Shown here piece by piece: positions 10,966-25,921 of a stretch of DNA of 35,219 nt. Positions within the stretch are counted from its first letter, which is position 1. Every line of letters begins with the position of its first letter. The position numbers and the translations under genes were made by a program. Source of the stretch: Clostridia bacterium (GTDB taxonomy: Bacteria; Bacillota; Clostridia; Christensenellales; Aristaeellaceae); NCBI GenBank assembly GCA_030529995.1, contig JAUMVT010000025.1:1-35219 (forward strand), given 5' to 3'. Below the pieces are notes generated by a model. It did not search any database. It was given only the letters and a program-made list of their open reading frames with translations, and had not been told where the DNA came from.

Positions 10966-11016
10966 GAAGCACGGATGATTCATCCTGAAACGAAAAAATT
11001 ACGGAGGTTCAATGAT

Positions 11017-11499
11017 ATGTATCGTTATTCCACGAATCGGGCGAGAGGCAATACCGGTGCACCGGGGCTGAAGGAGCGGGCAAAGACTCTGTTGATTATC
11101 GTTTTGCTGGCTGCATTGGTGGTGGGACTGATTGTGGGCGTTCCGGCGGTGAAGTTCAAGAACGACGCACGTCAGCTGTATTTGGCACGCATTCAGCTGG
11201 AGTGCGGCAACGCACTGGATCTTTCCGGCTCCCTCAGCAGAACGGCAGGCACGAGCTCCACATCCACCCTGTCCAAAATCCGCAGCTATGTGTATGCTAT
11301 GGAGACCATCAATTCCCTGAGTGTGGGCATGGACGGAAGCAACGGCTACATCATCTCTGAGGACTGGTTTACCAATCTGTACAGCATTATTGACGCTTAT
11401 TCCAGCCAGCTGCTGACGGGTATGAACACGTCCGAGCAGCAAACGTCCCTGTACAATTCTCTGCAAACACTGTCCCAGCAGCTGTCCGGAGTGGACTGA
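11017..11499 (+). CDS. Small single-pass membrane protein, function unknown
   Basis: Not recognised. The 160-residue protein has a basic N-terminus, one membrane segment (TLLIIVLLAALVVGLIVGVPA, residues ~24-44), and a ~115-residue extracytoplasmic part that looks helical (YLARIQLECGNALDLS, IRSYVYAMETINSL, TSLYNSLQTLSQQL). Start chosen at ATG 11017 because GGAGGT lies 8 nt upstream; the frame is open from 10975 but that ATG lies very close to the promoter. It has its own promoter and precedes the transport cluster by 112 bp with no clear terminator between, so readthrough is possible. Confidence 0.75.
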   Translation: MYRYSTNRARGNTGAPGLKERAKTLLIIVLLAALVVGLIVGVPAVKFKNDARQLYLARIQLECGNALDLSGSLSRTAGTSSTSTLSKIRSYVYAMETINSLSVGMDGSNGYIISEDWFTNLYSIIDAYSSQLLTGMNTSEQQTSLYNSLQTLSQQLSGVD

Positions 11500-11611
11500 A
11501 AAAAATAATGTGATGAAATTGTGAAGAATTTGTGAACGATGCAATAAAACGCCCTTCTTGTCCGTCTTATAAGTGTAACACAGAAAACACCTGGTGAAAG
11601 GAGACTTTGCA

Positions 11612-14017
11612 ATGAAGCAGAAGTTGTTTTCCTTCCTTTGTGCATTGGTGATGATATGCTCCTGCTTATCCTTGAGCGGAGCTGTGGCGGAGGATCAATC
11701 TTTTACGGCGGCGGATGTGCCGGAGAATCTTTTCATCTCCTCGGATGATTCCGATTATTATTCCCTTGAGTCCATGGTGGCTGTGGGCAGCACGCTGTAT
11801 GCTTCGATGTACACCAGCTACGGCAGAGCATTTGCTTACTGGCAGCCCGGCATGGAAAAGGAGAAAGTAATCGGGCTAAAGGAAACGACGGATGAAAACG
11901 GCAGCACTTACAAGACCACCACGCTGCTCTTTGCTTCTGACTATAATGATATGGAAAACATGAAGGCAGATGCGGAGCAAAAGGGTGGTGCCGATGCGGA
12001 TCACGCGCTGGGCAACCTGTTTACCGACGGCACACGGCTGCTATCCGTGAATCCCTTCACAGGCTTGGTATTTGAGATTCAGGTGGATGGCGACACCCTT
12101 GTTTACAAGGACATCGTTACCATGCAGGACACCAACCTTTTCTTCCATTTGTATGCTGATGATGGTACTTCCTACGTGATCAGTGGCAGCAGCGTTTCCA
12201 TTACCGTAGCGGGGGACAAGCTGCTGGTCTTCATCAACGACTGGGATGACAACGGCAAGTCTGCCAATAAGCTGTACATTGTGGATCTGGTGACCGGCGC
12301 AATGAAGACCTCTGCTGTTGAGCATGTGTATGGCTTGACTGGCTACAAAGACGGCAAGGCAGTTGTGCGCTTGTGGGATATAGATAATTCCTATAATGCG
12401 GAAACCCAAACGTACGATTACGGTGATGTGGCCATTTACGATCCGGTAACGGACACGGCGCAGAGCATCGGCAAGATGGATACCTATTCGAACATGCTCC
12501 TGTACTGCGAAGCACTGGATACCATCATTTATCAGAACAATACCAAGGTCATGGGCTTTGTGGGGGATCAGTTCACCAAGAAGCAGATTGGCTATATGCC
12601 TGTTGACTATGTAAGCTATGCGGCCACTATTGGCAAGACCTACATTGCCGCCAGCTACGAGAGCATTGCGGCTCGGGATCTGAATCTGGGCTTCCAGGCG
12701 GATCAATACCTGATGGTTGCCAACATGGGCTATATGTACAGCGGTGCTCAGCTCTTTACGGAGCGGTATCCCAGCATTCCTGTTTACTTTGACAACAGCT
12801 ACTATGCCGATGTGGAGAGCATCAACCAGGCCATGGTCAGCGGAGACAACACGGTGGATGCCTTTGCCATGAGCATTACCTACGGCTCCTTTGAGACCTT
12901 AATGAAGAAGGGCTACTGTGCCGACCTGTCCGGCTATACCGACCTGACCGATGCTATCAGCCGTATGTATCCTGTTTTCCAGAGCCAGGTAATGAAGGAT
13001 GGCAAGCTGTATGCGATTCCCTACAGCGTCTATGGCAGCGGAAGCTGGTTCTATGATACAGGCGTGTTGGAAGAAGTAGGGCTTACGGAAGATGAACTGC
13101 CTACCAACTTCGTTGAGCTGTGCGAATTCATCACCCGTTGGAATGATGAGTTTGTGGATGAATACCCTGAGTATTGGCTGATGGAAGGTACTGGCTCGGC
13201 CGGCTTGAAAGCGGAACTGCTGAGCACCATGATGTCTGCCTACATCGACTACTGCAATTATGAGGGCAAGGACATTACCTTCGATACTCCTGTGTTCCGT
13301 GAAATGATGCAGGCATGGGAAAAGGTTGAATGCGACCAGATTGATAAGCAAATGGCGGACGATGAGGCAAACGATACTTATCGGACCGGCTTGCTGAATC
13401 AATACTACACCACAGTGGGCGATTTCTCCTGGATGACGGGGAAGAATGAGTATGCCAAGTACTTGCCCATGACCCTGACCGCAGACACGGGAGAGGTCTT
13501 CACCACCAGTATGACGGTGCTGTTCATCAATCCCAACTCCACTCATTTTGAAGCAGCTGTGAACCTGATGTCCTGCACCTTGGAAGCACTGGACGATACT
13601 ACCAAGTATACCCTGTTCACTGATATGACGGAGCCGGTGAGAAACTCCAGTTATGACCGGATGTTGAGCAGCGAACAGGAATACCTGGACAGCCTGAAGA
13701 AGCAGCTGGAAACTGCTGATAAGGCTGACAAGCAGTACATTGAAGAATCCATCAAGAGCGAGGAAGAGTATATCGAGAAGACCTTGCCCCAGTATGAGTT
13801 CGACATTTCTGCCGAGGCGATTCAGTACTATCAGGAAAATGTGGTGCCGAAGATCGGCATTCGCAAGCCTTCGTTCCTCACTTCCAACTCTTCCTCTGAC
13901 TCCAACAGTGAACTGACGAATCTGGTCAGCCGGTACAGAGGCGGACAGATCACCCTGGATCAGTTCATCCGGGAGGCGGACAACAAGATGCGTATGATGC
14001 GCATGGAAGACGAGTAA
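11612..14017 (+). CDS. Very large extracellular solute-binding protein with N-terminal propeller-like domain
   Basis: An 801-residue exported protein, about twice the usual length of sugar-binding proteins (~400-450). A signal peptide (MKQKLFSFLCALVMICSC..., ending near GAVAED) has no clear lipobox. Residues ~30-370 contain repeated beta-strand/turn units such as GDKLLVFINDWDD and NKLYIVDLVTGAMK, typical of beta-propellers. Residues ~375-700 resemble family 1 solute-binding proteins (AQLFTERYPSIPVYF, MKDGKLYAIPYSV, TGVLEEVGLTEDELPTN). A Lys/Glu-rich coiled-coil stretch follows (~683-730). ATG 11612 has AAAGGAG 8 nt upstream. Two permease genes follow, so it should deliver substrate, probably a carbohydrate, to them. 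The propeller assignment is by eye. Confidence 0.85.
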   Translation: MKQKLFSFLCALVMICSCLSLSGAVAEDQSFTAADVPENLFISSDDSDYYSLESMVAVGSTLYASMYTSYGRAFAYWQPGMEKEKVIGLKETTDENGSTYKTTTLLFASDYNDMENMKADAEQKGGADADHALGNLFTDGTRLLSVNPFTGLVFEIQVDGDTLVYKDIVTMQDTNLFFHLYADDGTSYVISGSSVSITVAGDKLLVFINDWDDNGKSANKLYIVDLVTGAMKTSAVEHVYGLTGYKDGKAVVRLWDIDNSYNAETQTYDYGDVAIYDPVTDTAQSIGKMDTYSNMLLYCEALDTIIYQNNTKVMGFVGDQFTKKQIGYMPVDYVSYAATIGKTYIAASYESIAARDLNLGFQADQYLMVANMGYMYSGAQLFTERYPSIPVYFDNSYYADVESINQAMVSGDNTVDAFAMSITYGSFETLMKKGYCADLSGYTDLTDAISRMYPVFQSQVMKDGKLYAIPYSVYGSGSWFYDTGVLEEVGLTEDELPTNFVELCEFITRWNDEFVDEYPEYWLMEGTGSAGLKAELLSTMMSAYIDYCNYEGKDITFDTPVFREMMQAWEKVECDQIDKQMADDEANDTYRTGLLNQYYTTVGDFSWMTGKNEYAKYLPMTLTADTGEVFTTSMTVLFINPNSTHFEAAVNLMSCTLEALDDTTKYTLFTDMTEPVRNSSYDRMLSSEQEYLDSLKKQLETADKADKQYIEESIKSEEEYIEKTLPQYEFDISAEAIQYYQENVVPKIGIRKPSFLTSNSSSDSNSELTNLVSRYRGGQITLDQFIREADNKMRMMRMEDE

Positions 14018-14039
14018 TCGCCTGATTGAAACCTTCGTC

Positions 14040-14071
14040 GGGGCAGAGCCGGTGGAAAGCCTCCTCTGCCC
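14040..14071 (+). promoter_or_regulatory. Intercistronic hairpin between binding protein and permease
   Basis: GGGCAGAG (14041-14048) pairs perfectly with CTCTGCCC (14064-14071) across a 15-nt loop, without a T-tract. Hairpins at this position often protect the upstream binding-protein mRNA and lower permease expression. Confidence 0.6.
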
Positions 14072-14097
14072 TCCGACACGTAAGGGAGGATGCTCTT

Positions 14098-14952
14098 GTG
14101 TTTCACAAGAAGAAGATTGTGTGGCTCCTGCTTCTGCCCGGCATGGCGGGGCTTATCCTGTTTTATGTGGCTCCCTTCATCGGAGGAATTTATTATTCCC
14201 TGCTGGACGGAACCTTCCAGAATAACTTTGTAGGACTGGATAACTACCGCCGTGTTATGCAGAACAGCATGTTTCAGCTGGGACTCAAGAATACCTGGGA
14301 GCTGTCTATTCTGTGCGCTCCCGTGATTTGGCTCCTTTCCTTCCTGCTGGCTGCCATGCTGAAGATGCTGAAGGAGCGTTCCACGGCGTTCCGCAACATT
14401 CTGCTGCTGCCTTACCTGATGCCTTCCTCTGCTATGCTGCTGATTTGGCTGACCATGTTCGACTATGGCGGCGTGATCAACCGGCTGGTGGTAGCCTTGG
14501 GGCTGGAGCGGGTGGTTTGGCTGGATGGCGTCGCCCTTCGGGTGCCTGTGGTGCTGCTGTACATCTGGAAGAACCTGGGCTTCTCCGTGGTGCTGTTTGC
14601 ATCCGCTCTCAGTGCGGTGCATCCTTCCCTGTATGAGTACGCTTCTTTGGAAGGGGCAGGCTGGTTTACCCAGGCCTTCCGCATTACTTTGCCCCAGATT
14701 CTGCCCACGGCCTTCCTGGTGTTTGTTCTCAGCTGGGTGAATGCCTTCAAGATTTTCAAGGAAGTGTACTTCATCTCCGGCGCCTATCCATCGGATGCCA
14801 TCTATACCCTCCAGCACTTCATGAATAATAAGTATGCCAAGCTGGACTATCAGGATGTAACGTCTGCCGCCTATATTTTCGCTGTTGGCGTTATGGCACT
14901 GTTCGCACTGATGTATGCCTCCAAGGCTGTCCGCTCGCCGGATAAAGCGTAA
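14098..14952 (+). CDS. Carbohydrate ABC transporter permease, MalF/UgpA type
   Basis: One of two membrane subunits of a CUT1-type importer. The 284-residue protein has about six hydrophobic segments, starting IVWLLLLPGMAGLILFYVAP. The EAA loop that docks the ATPase is EYASLEGAGWFTQAFRITLP. GTG 14098 is chosen because AGGGAGG lies 8 nt upstream; the frame is open from 14026, but that region is an intercistronic hairpin. It pairs with the next gene. No ATPase gene is nearby, so a shared MsmX-type ATPase from elsewhere is the likely energy source. Confidence 0.92.
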   Translation: MFHKKKIVWLLLLPGMAGLILFYVAPFIGGIYYSLLDGTFQNNFVGLDNYRRVMQNSMFQLGLKNTWELSILCAPVIWLLSFLLAAMLKMLKERSTAFRNILLLPYLMPSSAMLLIWLTMFDYGGVINRLVVALGLERVVWLDGVALRVPVVLLYIWKNLGFSVVLFASALSAVHPSLYEYASLEGAGWFTQAFRITLPQILPTAFLVFVLSWVNAFKIFKEVYFISGAYPSDAIYTLQHFMNNKYAKLDYQDVTSAAYIFAVGVMALFALMYASKAVRSPDKA

Positions 14953-14972
14953 GGGAAAGGAGAATGAGCAGT

Positions 14973-15863
14973 ATGCATACGGCGCACCGCCGCAGAAGAC
15001 ACCGCCTCAATCGGCTTTCCCTTGGGGGATGGATCGCAATGATCCTGCTGGTGATTCTCTCTGCGCTGATTCTGGTTCCGATTATCTGCACGTTCCTGTA
15101 TTCCTTCTTCCCCACCAGCGAAATCAAGGCCTGGCTGGGGCAGCGGAACAACTATGATGCCACTAGGTGGATGGATGTGATTTACTCGCCGGCGCAGTTC
15201 TCTCTCCGGCAGTATTACACCATTCTGATCGAAAACCCCACCTACCTGCAATACTTCTGCAACTCGGTGATGTATGCGGCGGCTATTCTGCTGGGGCAGG
15301 CCATGATCATTCCTCTGACCGCCTATGCCTTGAGTCGCTTCACCTTCCGGGGCAGGGATGTCATCTTCTTTTTCATACTGGTGCTGATGATTCTGCCCTT
15401 TCAGGTCACCATGGCGCCCAGCGTGATGGTGCTTCGGTGGCTGGGATTGATGAACACCATTTGGGCGGTGATCCTGCCCATGTGCTTTTCACCCTTCTAT
15501 ATCTTCCTGCTGCGGCAGTTCATGGTTTCCATCCCCAATGAATTGCTGGAAGCCGGCATGGTAGACGGCGTGGGACCCTTCCGCGGGTTTATCCATGTGA
15601 TTTTACCAGTGTGCCGTCCCATCCTCGGTGCGGCGGCGGCACTTTCCTTTGCGGACTGCTGGAATATGGTGGAACAGCCTCTGGTGTATCTGGCCAATGC
15701 TTCATCCCTGCAGCCCCTGTCCACCATGTTTAACCAGATTTCCACGGAAGGCGCAGAGGTGGCTTTTGCCGGCTCTGCACTGTACATCCTGCCCACGCTG
15801 ATGATCTACCTGTACTTCCAGGAGGATATTGTGGCCGGTATTCAGCTCAGCGAGCTTAAGTAA
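14973..15863 (+). CDS. Carbohydrate ABC transporter permease, MalG type
   Basis: Second membrane subunit of the importer, 296 residues with about six hydrophobic segments. The EAA loop is EAGMVDGVGPFRGFIHVILP. A region after the first membrane segment (LGQRNNYDATRWMDVIYSPAQ) matches the extended external loop common in MalG-type permeases. ATG 14973 has AAAGGAG at about 10 nt; an ATG at 14964 is too close to the ribosome binding site. It ends 29 bp before the adaptor gene. Confidence 0.92.
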   Translation: MHTAHRRRRHRLNRLSLGGWIAMILLVILSALILVPIICTFLYSFFPTSEIKAWLGQRNNYDATRWMDVIYSPAQFSLRQYYTILIENPTYLQYFCNSVMYAAAILLGQAMIIPLTAYALSRFTFRGRDVIFFFILVLMILPFQVTMAPSVMVLRWLGLMNTIWAVILPMCFSPFYIFLLRQFMVSIPNELLEAGMVDGVGPFRGFIHVILPVCRPILGAAAALSFADCWNMVEQPLVYLANASSLQPLSTMFNQISTEGAEVAFAGSALYILPTLMIYLYFQEDIVAGIQLSELK

Positions 15864-15892
15864 TCCATTTCACCTGCATGGAGGTTATTTCG

Positions 15893-17263
15893 ATGAAGCT
15901 CAAGAGATTTGCCCTGCGAGGACTCATTATTCTGGCTGTGGTTGTGGCGCTATGCATGTTCTTTGCACGCACGGTGCAGACCATTACCACCCCCAAGGTT
16001 CGTATGTATACCCCCACCAAGGGTCGGCTGGAACAGTCCTATAAGCTGACGGCTGAGGTTTACTTCCCGGAAACGGAAGAAGTGACCGTAGCGGACGCCA
16101 AGAAAACGGCCGTTACCGTGAGCAAGGTGTATGTGAAGGCAGGCTCCTATGTGAGCAAGGGGGATACCATCTTTACCACCACGGTGGCCAGTTATGAAGA
16201 GGACCTGCAGAAGCTGCAGGACTCCTATGACAGCAAGGCAACCGAGCTGCTGGAACTGGACATCACCAACCGGAAGCTTTCCAAGGAAAGCCGGCAGAAT
16301 GAGCTGTATGCCGAAATGGTGGAGAAGCAGAGCGACCTGAGCAAGCGCACCTATGAGGCACGGAAGCTGGCCATGCAAAACGGCATTACCCTGGGCAGCG
16401 ACGTATCGACCTGGAAAAAGCAGCTGGCCGCCGTGAAGGATGTGCCCCAGGAGGTTACCGATGCGGTGAACAAGGCCATTGCTGCTAAGTCCACCTACGA
16501 TGAGGCGAGCACGGCCTTCTATGCCACCTATGAGGATAAGAAGCTGAAGGTCAGCAGCGACACCTTTGACTACATTAAAAAGCGGAATGCGCTGCAGGAC
16601 GAAATGGACGACCTGAGCGACCAGATGATTGAGCTGGATAGCCGTGTGTCTGCGCTGGCTACCATCACTGCTCCCCATGACGGATGGATCGTTTCCGTGG
16701 ATGTTGCGGCAGGGGATAACTACGATGGTGCCAAGGCTGCTTATACCATGACGGCGGAGGATTCCACGCCCCTGCTGAAGGCTTCCCTGACCGGCGTGGA
16801 TCGGACGATTTCCAACGGCACCAAGGTCACCCTGGGAGACAGCGACTCCGGCACAGAAAAAACCACGGTGCAGGCTACCCGCACGGAAACCAATGGCAGC
16901 AAATATTTGCTAATTGACCTGCCGGAATCCATGCAGGAGCCGGGCAATTCCGCCATTCGTCAGGCACTGAACAATGGCGGCGTGCAGGCAACCATTACCT
17001 ACCGTGCCAAGGAATCCACCACCCTGCTTCCTGCTTCCGCTGTGCGCAGTGATGGCAGCAGCTATTATGTGTTCGTTGTGCAGGACAGCAACGGCGGCTT
17101 CCTGACCAGCAACAGCAAGAAGGCTGTGAAGACCTCCGTGACTGTGATTGAAAAGAATGATAAGCAATATGCTGTGCAGGAGGATTTCTCCTACCAGACC
17201 ATTGCCTATCAGGAAGACCGGGCACTCAGCGATGGCATGGCTGTAATGGAATACGTGAACTGA
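15893..17263 (+). CDS. HlyD/MFP-type adaptor protein
   Basis: A 456-residue membrane fusion protein. One N-terminal membrane segment (LRGLIILAVVVALCMFFA) is followed by a split lipoyl-like domain (VTVSKVYVKAGSYVSKGD and ATITAPHDGWIVSVDVAAGD) flanking a long alpha-helical hairpin (DLQKLQDSYDSK to LSDQMIELDSRVSALA). C-terminal beta-barrel and membrane-proximal regions come last (ITYRAKESTTLLPASAV). Such adaptors normally link an inner-membrane exporter (MacB, ABC or RND) to outer partners; in Gram-positives they accompany MacB-type transporters. GGAGG lies 8 nt before ATG 15893. The next gene is MacB-like, as expected, but the upstream permeases are of importer type. Confidence 0.87.
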   Translation: MKLKRFALRGLIILAVVVALCMFFARTVQTITTPKVRMYTPTKGRLEQSYKLTAEVYFPETEEVTVADAKKTAVTVSKVYVKAGSYVSKGDTIFTTTVASYEEDLQKLQDSYDSKATELLELDITNRKLSKESRQNELYAEMVEKQSDLSKRTYEARKLAMQNGITLGSDVSTWKKQLAAVKDVPQEVTDAVNKAIAAKSTYDEASTAFYATYEDKKLKVSSDTFDYIKKRNALQDEMDDLSDQMIELDSRVSALATITAPHDGWIVSVDVAAGDNYDGAKAAYTMTAEDSTPLLKASLTGVDRTISNGTKVTLGDSDSGTEKTTVQATRTETNGSKYLLIDLPESMQEPGNSAIRQALNNGGVQATITYRAKESTTLLPASAVRSDGSSYYVFVVQDSNGGFLTSNSKKAVKTSVTVIEKNDKQYAVQEDFSYQTIAYQEDRALSDGMAVMEYVN

Positions 17264-17278
17264 TAGGAGGCGGCAGGA

Positions 17279-18964
17279 ATGAAGAAAAAATTCCGGGGCC
17301 TCGTGGTACTGCTGCTGATTTTTCTCGGTGTCATGACTTACAGCCTGATTCAGGTGAAGAGTGTAGGCAGCACCCTCCAATATGTGGTATCCCCGCCGGA
17401 GCTTCAGCAGGCGGATACATCCGGCAGTGAAAGCGATACAAACAAGGTTCAGCCCAATCAAGGACTGAAAGACTGGCAGGAGTCCCTAGAGACGGCAGCA
17501 GAGGAAATGTCCGAGGCTATTGCCAAGTGGACCATGGGGGGCGTGATTCAGAGCACAACGGTCTCCAATGCCACAGAGGAAGCCTCCGGCGACGCCCGCA
17601 TTGACCTGCTGGGAGAAAACGCATTTGCCGTCCATCCCCGTTACATCCTCTATGGCCGTACCTTCTATGATGAGGAGCTGAAGAACGGCGACAAGGTCAT
17701 TATGGTGGATGAACAGCTGGCACTGAAGCTGTACTCTGTAGCGGATCCTATTGACCGTACCGTGCTGCTGAACGGGGAAGAGTACCGTATCGTAGGCGTG
17801 GTTCGCCACGAAAAGCGGGTAGGCGACTATATGGACATGGGCGCTTACATTCCGCTAATGAGCTTGGTCAGCCAAAGCATTCAGCCTACCGCCATTGTGG
17901 TGGAGGCAACGCCGATCAGCGGTTCCGGAGCAAACGTAACCTTTACCAACACCATGAAGCAGTGGAAGGAAGGCGGCACCGTCATTGACCTGGGGAAGGA
18001 AACCATGGCTGCCACCCTGTGGCTTCGGGTGCTGATCTTCCTTGTGGGTTTTGTTATCGTGATGCGGGTGATTAAGCGGCTGAACAGAGAAGTGACCGCC
18101 TATCACCGGCAGTATCAGGCACAGCTGCAACGGGTCTATGCCATTCGGCTGATGCCCCAGCTGGTGCTGCGGATTGCCCTGTTCGCCGTAGGCTATGTGA
18201 TCTGCGCAGGGGGCTTGGCACTGTTGGTGAATTACCTGATTCGGCCTGTGTACACCTTCACGGAATGGGTGCCTACGGTACTGGTGGAGTGGAGCGACAT
18301 TACAACCGCCTTCTGGAACGTGTGGCAGACTCCGGCCACGGTGCTGGAGTTCCGCACGCCGGAACTGCTGCGGCTCAGGTTTTTCACGGTGGTGCTGCAG
18401 GGATGCACAGCCTGTGTCGGTCTCATTACTGCCTACCTGTACGGACAGAATCGCTCCCAGGAGCAGAAGATTCGCGAAACCCTGTCCACCCTGTATCAGG
18501 AGCGGGTGGCTGTGTCCTACGTGCGAACGGAGAAGCCCATGCTCTTTGCTTCCATGGGGTACATTCCCTGCGTGAATGCCGAGGAGCAGATTGATTGCGG
18601 CGAAAAGAAAAAGAAGCTGCGTACCACCACGGCCATGATCCGTATCGTGGATGCGGAAGAGGTGCTTCGGCTGATGCCGAACTCCGCCCGTGAAGGCTAT
18701 TTCGTTTTGCAGGTGACGGACCCCATCCTGAAGCAAAACAATGCCACCTATCGCATTGAATGCGGGGAGGCAGGCAAGAAGGTTCAGGAGATTGATCGGG
18801 ACTATGATCTTTCCCTGCCCATTGATACCTTGGCACGGCTTGTTTACGGCAGTGACAATTTCCAGGACTACTTGGAGAGCCATGCGGATTATGATTTGAA
18901 GATGCGTTCCCACACCATGGAAGGCTTCTTTGCCCATCACATGACCATTACCGGGAAAGCCTGA
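17279..18964 (+). CDS. MacB-like permease with C-terminal domain resembling the Eis/SCP2-like tail
   Basis: A 561-residue protein. One N-terminal membrane segment (~7-25) is followed by a MacB periplasmic-core-like region (YGRTFYDEELKNGDKVIMVD, then LLNGEEYRIVGVVRHEKR and AYIPLMSLV). Three further hydrophobic segments lie near 245-263, 290-315 and 368-388, as in MacB/FtsX permeases. The last ~170 residues are not part of that family. They contain FASMGYIPCV, like the end of a GNAT acetyltransferase fold, and then MIRIVDAEEVLRLM, GYFVLQVTDP, NNATYRIECGE and LPIDTLARLVYGS, which follow the pattern of the SCP2-like domain closing Eis-type acetyltransferases. The tail would lie in the cytoplasm. 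AGGAGG lies 8 nt before ATG 17279. No cognate ATPase is adjacent. The permease part is fairly sure; the tail assignment is pattern recognition. Confidence 0.8.
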   Translation: MKKKFRGLVVLLLIFLGVMTYSLIQVKSVGSTLQYVVSPPELQQADTSGSESDTNKVQPNQGLKDWQESLETAAEEMSEAIAKWTMGGVIQSTTVSNATEEASGDARIDLLGENAFAVHPRYILYGRTFYDEELKNGDKVIMVDEQLALKLYSVADPIDRTVLLNGEEYRIVGVVRHEKRVGDYMDMGAYIPLMSLVSQSIQPTAIVVEATPISGSGANVTFTNTMKQWKEGGTVIDLGKETMAATLWLRVLIFLVGFVIVMRVIKRLNREVTAYHRQYQAQLQRVYAIRLMPQLVLRIALFAVGYVICAGGLALLVNYLIRPVYTFTEWVPTVLVEWSDITTAFWNVWQTPATVLEFRTPELLRLRFFTVVLQGCTACVGLITAYLYGQNRSQEQKIRETLSTLYQERVAVSYVRTEKPMLFASMGYIPCVNAEEQIDCGEKKKKLRTTTAMIRIVDAEEVLRLMPNSAREGYFVLQVTDPILKQNNATYRIECGEAGKKVQEIDRDYDLSLPIDTLARLVYGSDNFQDYLESHADYDLKMRSHTMEGFFAHHMTITGKA

Positions 18965-18994: not shown

Positions 18995-19027
18995 GCGGCA
19001 TCGTCGATCTTGCACCGACGATGCCGC
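18995..19027. terminator. Bidirectional terminator between the transport cluster and fba
   Basis: A perfect 12-bp stem, GCGGCATCGTCG (18995-19006) with CGACGATGCCGC (19016-19027), 9-nt loop. The minus-strand side continues into TTCTTTTGTATTTT and clearly terminates fba. The plus-strand side has AATTGTTT, a weaker T-tract. Confidence 0.9.
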
Positions 19028-24371: not shown

Positions 24372-25085
24372 TTACTTGGTACCCAGGTAGGCGTCCTGCA
24401 CACGTTTGTCTGCCAAGAGCTCTTCGCCTGTGCCGGACATGGTAATGCGTCCGGTCTCCAGCACGTAGGCATGGTGGGCGCAGCGCAGGGCAGCATTAGC
24501 ATTCTGCTCAATTAGCAGGATGGTCATGCCGGTCTGGTTCAGCTGACGAATGATGGAGAAAATGTCCTTCACGATCAAGGGGGCAAGTCCCAAGGAAGGC
24601 TCATCCATCATCAGAATCCGAGGCCTGGTCATCATGGCACGGCCAACGGCCAGCATCTGCTGCTCACCACCGGAAAGGGTACCGGCCTTCTGCCAGTTTC
24701 TTTCCTTCAACCGGGGGAAGAGGGTGTAGACATGCTCAATGTCGGATTCGATGCTGTTTTTGTCTTTGCGGAGATAGGCACCGATTTGCAGGTTCTCCTT
24801 TACGGTCAGGTTGTCAAAAACCCGGCGTCCTTCCGGCACCAAGGCGATGCCTTCGGACACAATCCGCTGGGTGTTCTGACTGGTAATGTCCCGTCCGTCA
24901 TACACGATACGTCCCGAGCTGGAACGAACCAGTCCGCAGATGGTGCGCAGGGTGGTAGACTTACCGGCACCGTTGGCGCCGATCAAGGTAACGATTTCCC
25001 CTTCTTCCACCTCAAAGGAAATGCCACGCAAGGCATCAATGCCGCCGTAGTTCACGTGAAGATCCGTTACTTTCAGCAGACTCAT
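24372..25085 (-). CDS. livF: Branched-chain amino acid ABC transporter ATP-binding protein LivF
   Basis: One of two ATPases powering the Liv importer. The 237-residue protein has Walker A GANGAGKST, a Q-loop region, signature LSGGEQQMLAVGRA and Walker B ILMMDEPSLGLAP. The GIDALRGISFEV and VPEGRRVFDNLTVKENL segments are typical of LivF. It starts by a 4-bp ATGA overlap with livG and is the last gene of the operon, ending near a bidirectional terminator. Confidence 0.96.
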   Translation of the reverse strand: MSLLKVTDLHVNYGGIDALRGISFEVEEGEIVTLIGANGAGKSTTLRTICGLVRSSSGRIVYDGRDITSQNTQRIVSEGIALVPEGRRVFDNLTVKENLQIGAYLRKDKNSIESDIEHVYTLFPRLKERNWQKAGTLSGGEQQMLAVGRAMMTRPRILMMDEPSLGLAPLIVKDIFSIIRQLNQTGMTILLIEQNANAALRCAHHAYVLETGRITMSGTGEELLADKRVQDAYLGTK

Positions 25086-25921
25086 TCTTCATCCACCCCC
25101 AGATAGGCCGCAATCACCGCAGGATTATCCCGCACTTCTGCAGGGGTTCCCTTGGCAATCAGCTTGCCGAAGTCAATCACGTAAATACGGTCGGAAATAT
25201 CCATGACCAGGTTCATGTGGTGTTCGATCATGAAAATGGTCAGCCCAAACTGATCCTTAATGGAGCGGATGAAGGCACCCAGTTCCTCTGTTTCCTGAGG
25301 ATTCATGCCGGCGGCAGGCTCGTCCAGCAGCAGCAGCTTGGGCTTGGTTGCCAAGGCACGGGCAATTTCCAAGCGGCGCTGTTTGCCGTAGGGGAGGGAA
25401 GTCGCCTTCTCCTCCGCCAAGTCAGCCAGACCCACCACATCCAGCAGCTCCATGGCATGCTTGCGCATGGCCGCTTCTTCCTTGTAGTTCAGGCGGAAGG
25501 TAGCGGAAAACACGTTGCTGGTGCGACGCAAGTGGGTGGCAATCAGCACGTTTTCAAAAGCGGTCTGGGACTTGAACAGCCGGATGTTCTGAAAGGTACG
25601 GGCAATGCCTAGTGCCGTGATCTTGTCCGGCGTCATGCGGATGTGCTTGCCCAGGTACATATCGCCTTTTTCACCGGCATATTCATGCTTCATTTTGCCG
25701 GATGGATGATTCATGGCAATGGGCTTGTCCTGAAAATAAACCGCACCGTTGGTGGGTTCATAAACGCCGGTGATGCAGTTGAAGGCAGTGGTTTTGCCGG
25801 CACCGTTGGGGCCGATCAGTGCCACGATTTCGCCCTCGTTGGCTTCCATGGAAAGGTCATTGATGGCAACCACGCCGCCGAACTGCATGGTGACGTTTTC
25901 TACACGCAACACGCTGCTCAT
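25082..25921 (-). CDS. livG: Branched-chain amino acid ABC transporter ATP-binding protein LivG
   Basis: The second Liv ATPase, 279 residues. Walker A is GPNGAGKTT, the signature is LPYGKQRRLEIARAL (the variant usual in LivG), and Walker B is LLLLDEPAAGMNP. A ~25-residue segment between GAVYFQDKP and ITALGIARTFQNIRLF (residues ~70-105) is longer than in E. coli LivG but is seen in Clostridial proteins of this family. Overlaps livM by 4 bp (ATGA), consistent with coupled translation. Confidence 0.96.
   Translation of the reverse strand: MSSVLRVENVTMQFGGVVAINDLSMEANEGEIVALIGPNGAGKTTAFNCITGVYEPTNGAVYFQDKPIAMNHPSGKMKHEYAGEKGDMYLGKHIRMTPDKITALGIARTFQNIRLFKSQTAFENVLIATHLRRTSNVFSATFRLNYKEEAAMRKHAMELLDVVGLADLAEEKATSLPYGKQRRLEIARALATKPKLLLLDEPAAGMNPQETEELGAFIRSIKDQFGLTIFMIEHHMNLVMDISDRIYVIDFGKLIAKGTPAEVRDNPAVIAAYLGVDEE

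Follow-up and report, generated by a model that had tools for sequence, protein, structure and literature searches.

The last gene of an importer-like operon in the window, which is the whole 35,219-nucleotide stretch of DNA analysed, encodes a MacB-type membrane protein that continues in frame into a tail homologous to two pieces of Eis-family acetyltransferases. The tail keeps the end of the first GNAT domain (GNAT1) and the SCP2-type domain of Eis, and the parts needed for catalysis have been lost. The same fusion is conserved in seven genomes, and its tails group with a clade of Eis proteins, some of which adjoin the fused gene. That the tail descends from such an Eis enzyme is very probable. 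The best explanation as a whole, to which we give a probability of about one half, is that selection has maintained this Eis-derived tail as a module for docking or control in a membrane complex.

Architecture of the fused protein and identity of its tail

The fused ORF (17279..18964, plus strand; ORF call with translation and Pfam) ends with its stop codon at 18964 and encodes 561 residues: TM1, a MacB_PCD ectodomain, TM2 to TM4 and the Eis-derived tail. The MacB-like periplasmic core domain occupies residues 45-212 (17411..17914, plus strand; PF12704, E 7e-16, 59.6 bits, cut-off 27). Kyte-Doolittle hydropathy over a window of 19 places TM1 at residues 8-26 (17300..17356), TM2 at residues 247-265 (18017..18073), TM3 at residues 299-317 (18173..18229) and TM4 at residues 369-387 (18383..18439), all on the plus strand. 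TM4 rises above the hydropathy threshold in six of the seven fused proteins and stays below it in that of G032. The window protein carries about 170 residues after TM4. Because its TM2-TM3 loop (265-296) is basic, with six Lys or Arg residues and one Asp or Glu residue, the tail should lie on the cytosolic side according to the positive-inside rule. The motifs quoted in the first-pass annotation are all present in the translated ORF, and so is the Eis-like region that it proposed, although residues ~410-561 were slightly too short a span; this region is now placed at residues 393-555 (18455-18943 of the window).

The second part of the tail (residues 453-555; 18635..18943, plus strand) is as good as certainly the SCP2-type domain of Eis proteins, as judged by PF13530, hhalign, a PDB profile search and Foldseek. 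SCP2_2 (PF13530) matches residues 471-528 of the window protein (E 7e-8, 33.4 bits, cut-off 23.2) and scores above its cut-off in all seven fused proteins, this one included. A profile of the seven tails matches a profile of 48 Eis rows, two of which (L072 and L081) represent the same gene, at 99.4% and E 4.7e-22 over the SCP2 part (hhalign), and this part scores positively against 47 of the 48 rows taken singly. The NCBIfam PRK01346 models match weakly (E 5e-4 with the whole protein and 5.5e-5 with the tail alone), their scores on the tail being far below the cut-offs of the models. The Eis signal in the tail needs profiles, because the tail as a single sequence gives nothing significant against PDB sequences (best E 0.14 for an unrelated RNA-binding protein; 0.39 for Eis2). 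The tail profile finds seven distinct PDB sequences of 388-415 residues at E<=1, namely three sequences of Eis1/Eis2, the hypothetical protein 2hv2 and three GNAT acetyltransferases. Of these, 3n7z scores best (E 8.5e-6), and both tail parts align on it collinearly, tail residues 4-41 on 96-133 and tail residues 57-133 on 275-351.

AlphaFold2, run on the tail with three sequences, predicts an SCP2-like sheet after a helix-strand-helix first part (H5-18, E23-28, H31-35). The best model has a mean pLDDT of 69.7 and a pTM of 0.66, the last ~25 residues being mostly below 50, and the remaining four models reach 64.0, 43.6, 42.0 and 36.8. Because one of the three input rows is the C-terminal part of an Eis protein, the SCP2 part of the model may lean towards Eis; the GNAT1-end part was modelled without any Eis row in the input. 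Among the 50 of 426 Foldseek matches listed (32 at E<=0.001), the chains are 379-409 residues long and belong to Eis proteins, to GNAT acetyltransferases or to 2hv2, which carries a title of unknown function. Most of the listed alignments cover about 75-110 columns with a TMq of about 0.4. Those with 2ozg (282 columns, TMq 0.57, rmsd 8.5) and 3n7z_C (270 columns, TMq 0.56, rmsd 9.1) are longer than the 172-residue query and therefore contain a long gap, as expected if the second GNAT domain (GNAT2) is missing. The Eis-type homology first proposed from the letters alone is thus borne out by the SCP2_2 match above cut-off, the profile-profile match and Foldseek, and the structure prediction agrees, giving an SCP2-like sheet and listed matches that are Eis or similar-sized proteins, mostly GNAT.

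The first part of the tail (residues 393-432; 18455..18574, plus strand; hhalign and shuffles) is well supported as a remnant of the end of GNAT1 of an Eis protein. Taken by themselves, the 60 profile columns that precede the SCP2 part have a single matching place in Eis, over 38 columns at the end of GNAT1. This match scores 30.0, compared with a mean of 11.2 (sd 2.1, best 17.8) for 200 column shuffles and with 9.0 for the reversed alignment. The corresponding match in 3n7z taken alone is below significance (6.2 bits, i-Evalue 90), and the piece scores positively against 4 of the 48 single Eis sequences (3 by the filter of the script). An origin from the end of GNAT2, where plain MAFFT put the piece, was rejected, profile-profile alignment having given the GNAT1 end with no competitor. 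Since the piece corresponds to the end of GNAT1, the second GNAT domain has dropped out between the two parts of the tail, and a linker of ~20 residues stands in its place in the window protein. The order of a GNAT end followed by SCP2, as originally described, therefore stands, but the tail is not a contiguous Eis C terminus.

Eis-family N-acetyltransferases, represented by structures such as PDB 6rfy, 3n7z and 2i00, are described in the excerpted text of PMC5799202 as GNAT - GNAT - SCP2. The fused tail resembles them in having an SCP2-type domain after a GNAT1-end-like piece. In contrast to Eis, it is joined to a membrane protein, has no GNAT2 and no Phe or Tyr at the C terminus, and has lost the acetyl-CoA half of GNAT1. 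PF13527, which covers the N-terminal GNAT domain with its acetyl-CoA binding loop, has no match at E<=10 in the window protein and none at E<=1 in the six other fused proteins, and ~40 residues at the end of GNAT1 are what remains of this domain. PF17668, the central GNAT2 domain, has no match in any of the seven. The last residue is Phe (41) or Tyr (6) in 47 of the 48 Eis rows and in none of the seven tails. The Tyr of the Y-x-x-x-G-[YFW] motif at the GNAT1 end is present in all 48 Eis rows and has been lost in six of the seven tails, G071 being the one that retains it. In Eis, Y126 is described as the general acid and F402 as a possible remote base (PMC4964394, in excerpt), and Y126 would correspond to the Tyr column of this motif. 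Without GNAT2, a C-terminal aromatic residue and the half of GNAT1 that binds acetyl-CoA, the fused tail is probably not an enzyme and should no longer acetylate.

Distribution, conservation and origin of the fusion

A full-length fused frame is present in 7 of 308 genomes of the family, many of which are incomplete. These are the window genome (G000), G134, G269, G032, G162, G071 and G274, and they fall into four genus groups. The G269 locus has the same sequence as JAFUOR010000064.1 (L021), and in G297 a contig end cuts the gene before the tail. An assembly or frame-shift artefact that joins two genes, in favour of which nothing was found, is refuted by the same architecture in the six further genomes, and its probability is negligible; the fusion is kept in homologues, a point that the first-pass annotation had raised. 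In an order-level sample of 396 genomes, a match at 1e-20 occurs in 23, each of them from the family of the window. In a class-level sample of 391 genomes, every frame hit by the tail profile at 1e-6, the window apart, is 263-539 residues long.

A 25-row permease tree groups the fused proteins with G297 and the unfused proteins of G108 and G154 (95/94). The unfused G154 nests inside the fused proteins (100/98), and a tree in which the seven are held apart from it is rejected (p-AU 1.5e-74). The tail has apparently been lost secondarily in this close relative, whose frame (L115, 6825-8231) ends soon after TM4. The placement of G108 would also allow a second loss of the tail there. Because the seven tails form one group, the history is most simply explained by a single gain and a subsequent loss in G154, and as G154 does without it, the tail is dispensable.

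Mean pairwise identity over 21 pairs is 45.1% for the ectodomain, 52.8% for the TM part, 36.3% for the GNAT1 end and 43.7% for the SCP2 part, the last ranging from 27 to 66% among the seven proteins. In the SCP2 part, dN is smaller than dS in every pair with a computable dS (0.24 and 1.06 in G269/G134), the comparison being rough because dS values are close to saturation and 4 of the 21 pairs gave none. The frame stays open over ~150-190 codons after TM4 in the seven genomes of four genus groups, and 14 columns are invariant across the seven tails. The tail of G071 has diverged further than the ectodomain of the same protein in each of its six pairs; in other pairs, the tails of the window and G162 are conserved about as well as, or better than, the ectodomains. 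These patterns suggest that the tail module is kept by selection. If it were instead a decaying duplicate, read on from the membrane protein and merely tolerated, the domain loss in the tail, the tailless G154 within the fused clade and the faster divergence of the G071 tail would all be accommodated. However, such a leftover is largely refuted by the recurrence of the open frame in seven genomes and by the SCP2 identities and dN/dS data, and we regard it as very unlikely.

The seven tails form one group (98/97) in an SCP2-domain tree with 55 members, and this group joins a clade of 12 Eis proteins together with one Eis of G007 (96/98), the inner order being open. Because the tails stand beside and not inside this linked Eis clade, any one of its members would be only a putative donor. 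Four of the 12 adjoin the fused gene; those of G112, G272, G265 and G273 follow the small membrane protein or the solute-binding protein of the operon described below, at the same kind of junction, and those of G270, G267, G171 and G154 stand elsewhere. An Eis gene is the next gene in four of six informative fused genomes and in none of 28 unfused genomes whose loci extend 1.4 kb or more beyond the gene, a count made by hand from the locus rows and covering the fetched genomes among the family relatives. In G269, G134 and G274 it lies on the same strand, 7-25 bp from the fused gene, and in G032 it overlaps the fused gene by 63 in the longest reading. The next gene is not an Eis gene in the window, and no Eis gene lies within 1.1 kb downstream in G162; G071, with only 512 bp downstream, is not counted. 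G154, G297, G215, G150, G076, G022, G026, G025 and G163 were dropped for too little sequence, the short locus of G163 being absent from the rows. In G112, G272 and G265 the small protein is directly followed by Eis with no operon between them, and in G273 the order is small protein, solute-binding protein, Eis; in these four genomes the operon has been lost from, or never entered, the junction before Eis. An Eis-type ORF of G069 (L078, 6087-7934) is open for ~230 residues before GNAT1 with no Pfam match there at E<=0.001, which is either a true extension or merely a far start codon. In G065 (L079, 7433-10079) two Eis-type genes stand in tandem, and duplicated Eis genes therefore occur in the family of the window.

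A PF13530 search of the window genome (92% complete) finds no Eis besides the fused tail. G071 has no SCP2_2 match except the tail itself, and G162 has a distant Eis only and none of the linked clade. An Eis may have been missed in one of these three genomes, which are 82-95% complete.

As the trees and gene neighbourhoods suggest, the fusion most likely arose from a duplicated Eis gene and was then retained. A copy of an operon-linked Eis gene would have been joined in frame behind TM4 of the MacB-type protein, and loss of GNAT2, of the catalytic C terminus and of the acetyl-CoA half of GNAT1 would have left the GNAT1 end and SCP2. A related intact enzyme still adjoins the fused gene in four genomes. 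With this relative next door, unfused relatives and a probable secondary loss, the putative passage from an enzyme to an apparently non-catalytic part of a membrane complex is traceable.

The membrane part and its operon

The fused gene is the last gene of an operon on the plus strand. A solute-binding protein (11594..14017; PF13416 at residues 388-664) has an N-terminal extension of ~380 residues with no Pfam match above cut-off in it, and several relatives carry two such extended genes in a row. It is followed by two ABC importer membrane subunits with PF00528 (14026..14952 and 14964..15863), which we take to be MalF-type and MalG-type from gene order, and these two are the best conserved parts of the operon. 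An HlyD/RND-type adaptor gene (membrane fusion protein; 15878..17263; TIGR01730 at E 4.5e-10, below cut-off) stands directly upstream of the fused gene. It is the same neighbour in relatives, being directly upstream in 63 of 66 locus rows, which overlap with several per genome. Two of the three exceptions, from one genome, start at a contig end, and in the third (L040) a long ORF call overlaps the HlyD gene. A small membrane protein (10975..11499, plus strand; locus comparison) precedes the operon and also directly precedes the Eis gene in relatives without the operon there. A terminator-like hairpin of 14 pairs (18995..19027, minus strand; consensus match only) follows the fused gene, and the next gene, on the minus strand, presumably encodes fructose-bisphosphate aldolase. 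Defence-system membership was rejected, four proteins giving no PADLOC match at E<=0.01.

The description as a MacB/FtsX permease in the first-pass annotation does not hold. MacB_PCD is found in all 24 relatives and the FtsX membrane domain (PF02687) in none of the 24 at E<=10; the window genome contains four matches to FtsX, all of them outside the fused gene. FtsX homology of the membrane part was rejected as a candidate, canonical permeases of the same genome having aligned to the ectodomain (L141, 92.5%), with a loosely aligned part of the membrane region too in the L142 comparison (75.9%). No ATPase gene, fused or separate, is present in the window operon, and an ABC-signature scan that covered up to 7 kb in each of the 66 locus rows, or less where the locus ended earlier, gave no operon-strand ATPase, only short ORFs in two genomes on the opposite strand. 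The nearest ABC ATPase genes in the window (24372-25921, minus strand) presumably belong to another transporter operon. Two MalK-type ATPases encoded elsewhere in the genome may energise MalF/MalG. Because the FtsX domain is undetected and the operon has no ATPase gene, the fused protein is not a canonical MacB/FtsX permease.

Like MacB and YknZ (Type VII ABC), the fused protein has one TM helix, a MacB_PCD ectodomain and three more TM helices (PMC5985334, PMC4887032, both in excerpt), and as in YknX/YknZ the adaptor gene adjoins the membrane-subunit gene (PMC4887032). However, it differs from MacB/YknZ in its undetected FtsX domain and in an ATPase that is neither fused nor encoded in the operon. 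In the available text of PMC5985334, TM3 and TM4 of MacB are joined by a short loop (the 'shoulder') and a minor coupling helix at the C terminus touches the ATPase. In contrast, the TM3-TM4 loop here is about 50 residues long and bears a well conserved motif, and the C-terminal end bears the Eis remnant where MacB has the coupling helix. Because the YknZ ectodomain is described as binding the adaptor YknX (PMC4887032), the HlyD adaptor likely pairs with the MacB-type ectodomain by analogy. The Aat system of E. coli is similar in that a MacB/Lol-like membrane system is genetically tied to an acyltransferase gene, but AatD is described as a separate Lnt-type acyltransferase that modifies the substrate in the periplasm (PMC7943197, in excerpt), whereas the fused part here looks like an inactive Eis remnant.

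The combination of MalF/MalG-type subunits and HlyD with a MacB_PCD protein that lacks both an FtsX domain and an ATPase in its operon (11594-18964 and relatives) occurs in one family only among the genomes searched. No MacB_PCD-SCP2 or Eis-permease fusion was found among the matches listed from open-licence PMC literature. The SCP2-type domain and the MacB_PCD ectodomain are each known, and their combination appears to be unreported in the literature searched.

Possible roles of the tail

A kept fusion whose lost pieces include catalytic parts suggests that an enzyme piece has been reused as a docking or control part. On the cytosolic side of the membrane, the tail would occupy the position at which MacB contacts its ATPase through the C-terminal helix, and would serve there for protein docking or control. 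The partner tethered to the membrane complex in this way would be a cytosolic protein, perhaps the paralogous Eis in genomes that encode it next door; in the others it would be another partner or the protein's own dimer. The docking role is a guess, held at slightly worse than even odds.

Regulatory tails gate other ABC systems. An SCP2-type tail could likewise sense a cytosolic lipid, acyl-CoA or sugar derivative and gate the transport complex, as the predicted cytosolic position of the tail (hydropathy), the importer subunits of the operon and the 14 invariant columns would allow. However, the Eis SCP domain is described as having no hydrophobic cavity (PMC4964394, in excerpt), and the acetyl-CoA half of GNAT1 is gone. 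The lipid or acyl binding originally suggested for the tail is thus unsupported, and ligand sensing seems unlikely. Docking, in line with the partner-protein binding that the first-pass annotation also raised, is preferred over it on three grounds: the oligomeric state of Eis, the non-catalytic nature of the pieces that remain, and the description of an SCP domain without a cavity in Eis.

A narrower form of docking, in which the tail hetero-assembles with the adjoining Eis enzyme and brings it to the membrane, would fit the restriction of next-door Eis genes to fused genomes (4/6 against 0/28), the grouping of the tails with the linked Eis clade and the hexamer of two trimers described for mycobacterial Eis (PMC4964394, in excerpt). 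However, tails persist in the window genome and G071, where no other SCP2_2 match was found, and in G162, which has the distant Eis, and of these three only the G071 tail evolves fast. Because the window and G162 tails are conserved although a linked-clade Eis is unseen there, Eis is probably not the sole partner, and such specific recruitment is as doubtful as ligand sensing. The broader docking or control role accommodates these genomes through other partners. More speculatively, and as a long shot, the HlyD adaptor and the ATPase-less MacB-type protein could work together as a transmembrane mechanical relay with a coupling to the MalFG importer. One clade would have added an enzyme-derived domain to the NBD-facing end of this relay, and a cytosolic partner that binds there, at first the Eis acetyltransferase, would then give the input signal in place of ATP.

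Elsewhere in the window, a 418-residue ORF (811-2067) combines a cytidylyltransferase-like domain with an HD domain, which we take to be a fusion of the NadD-YqeK type.
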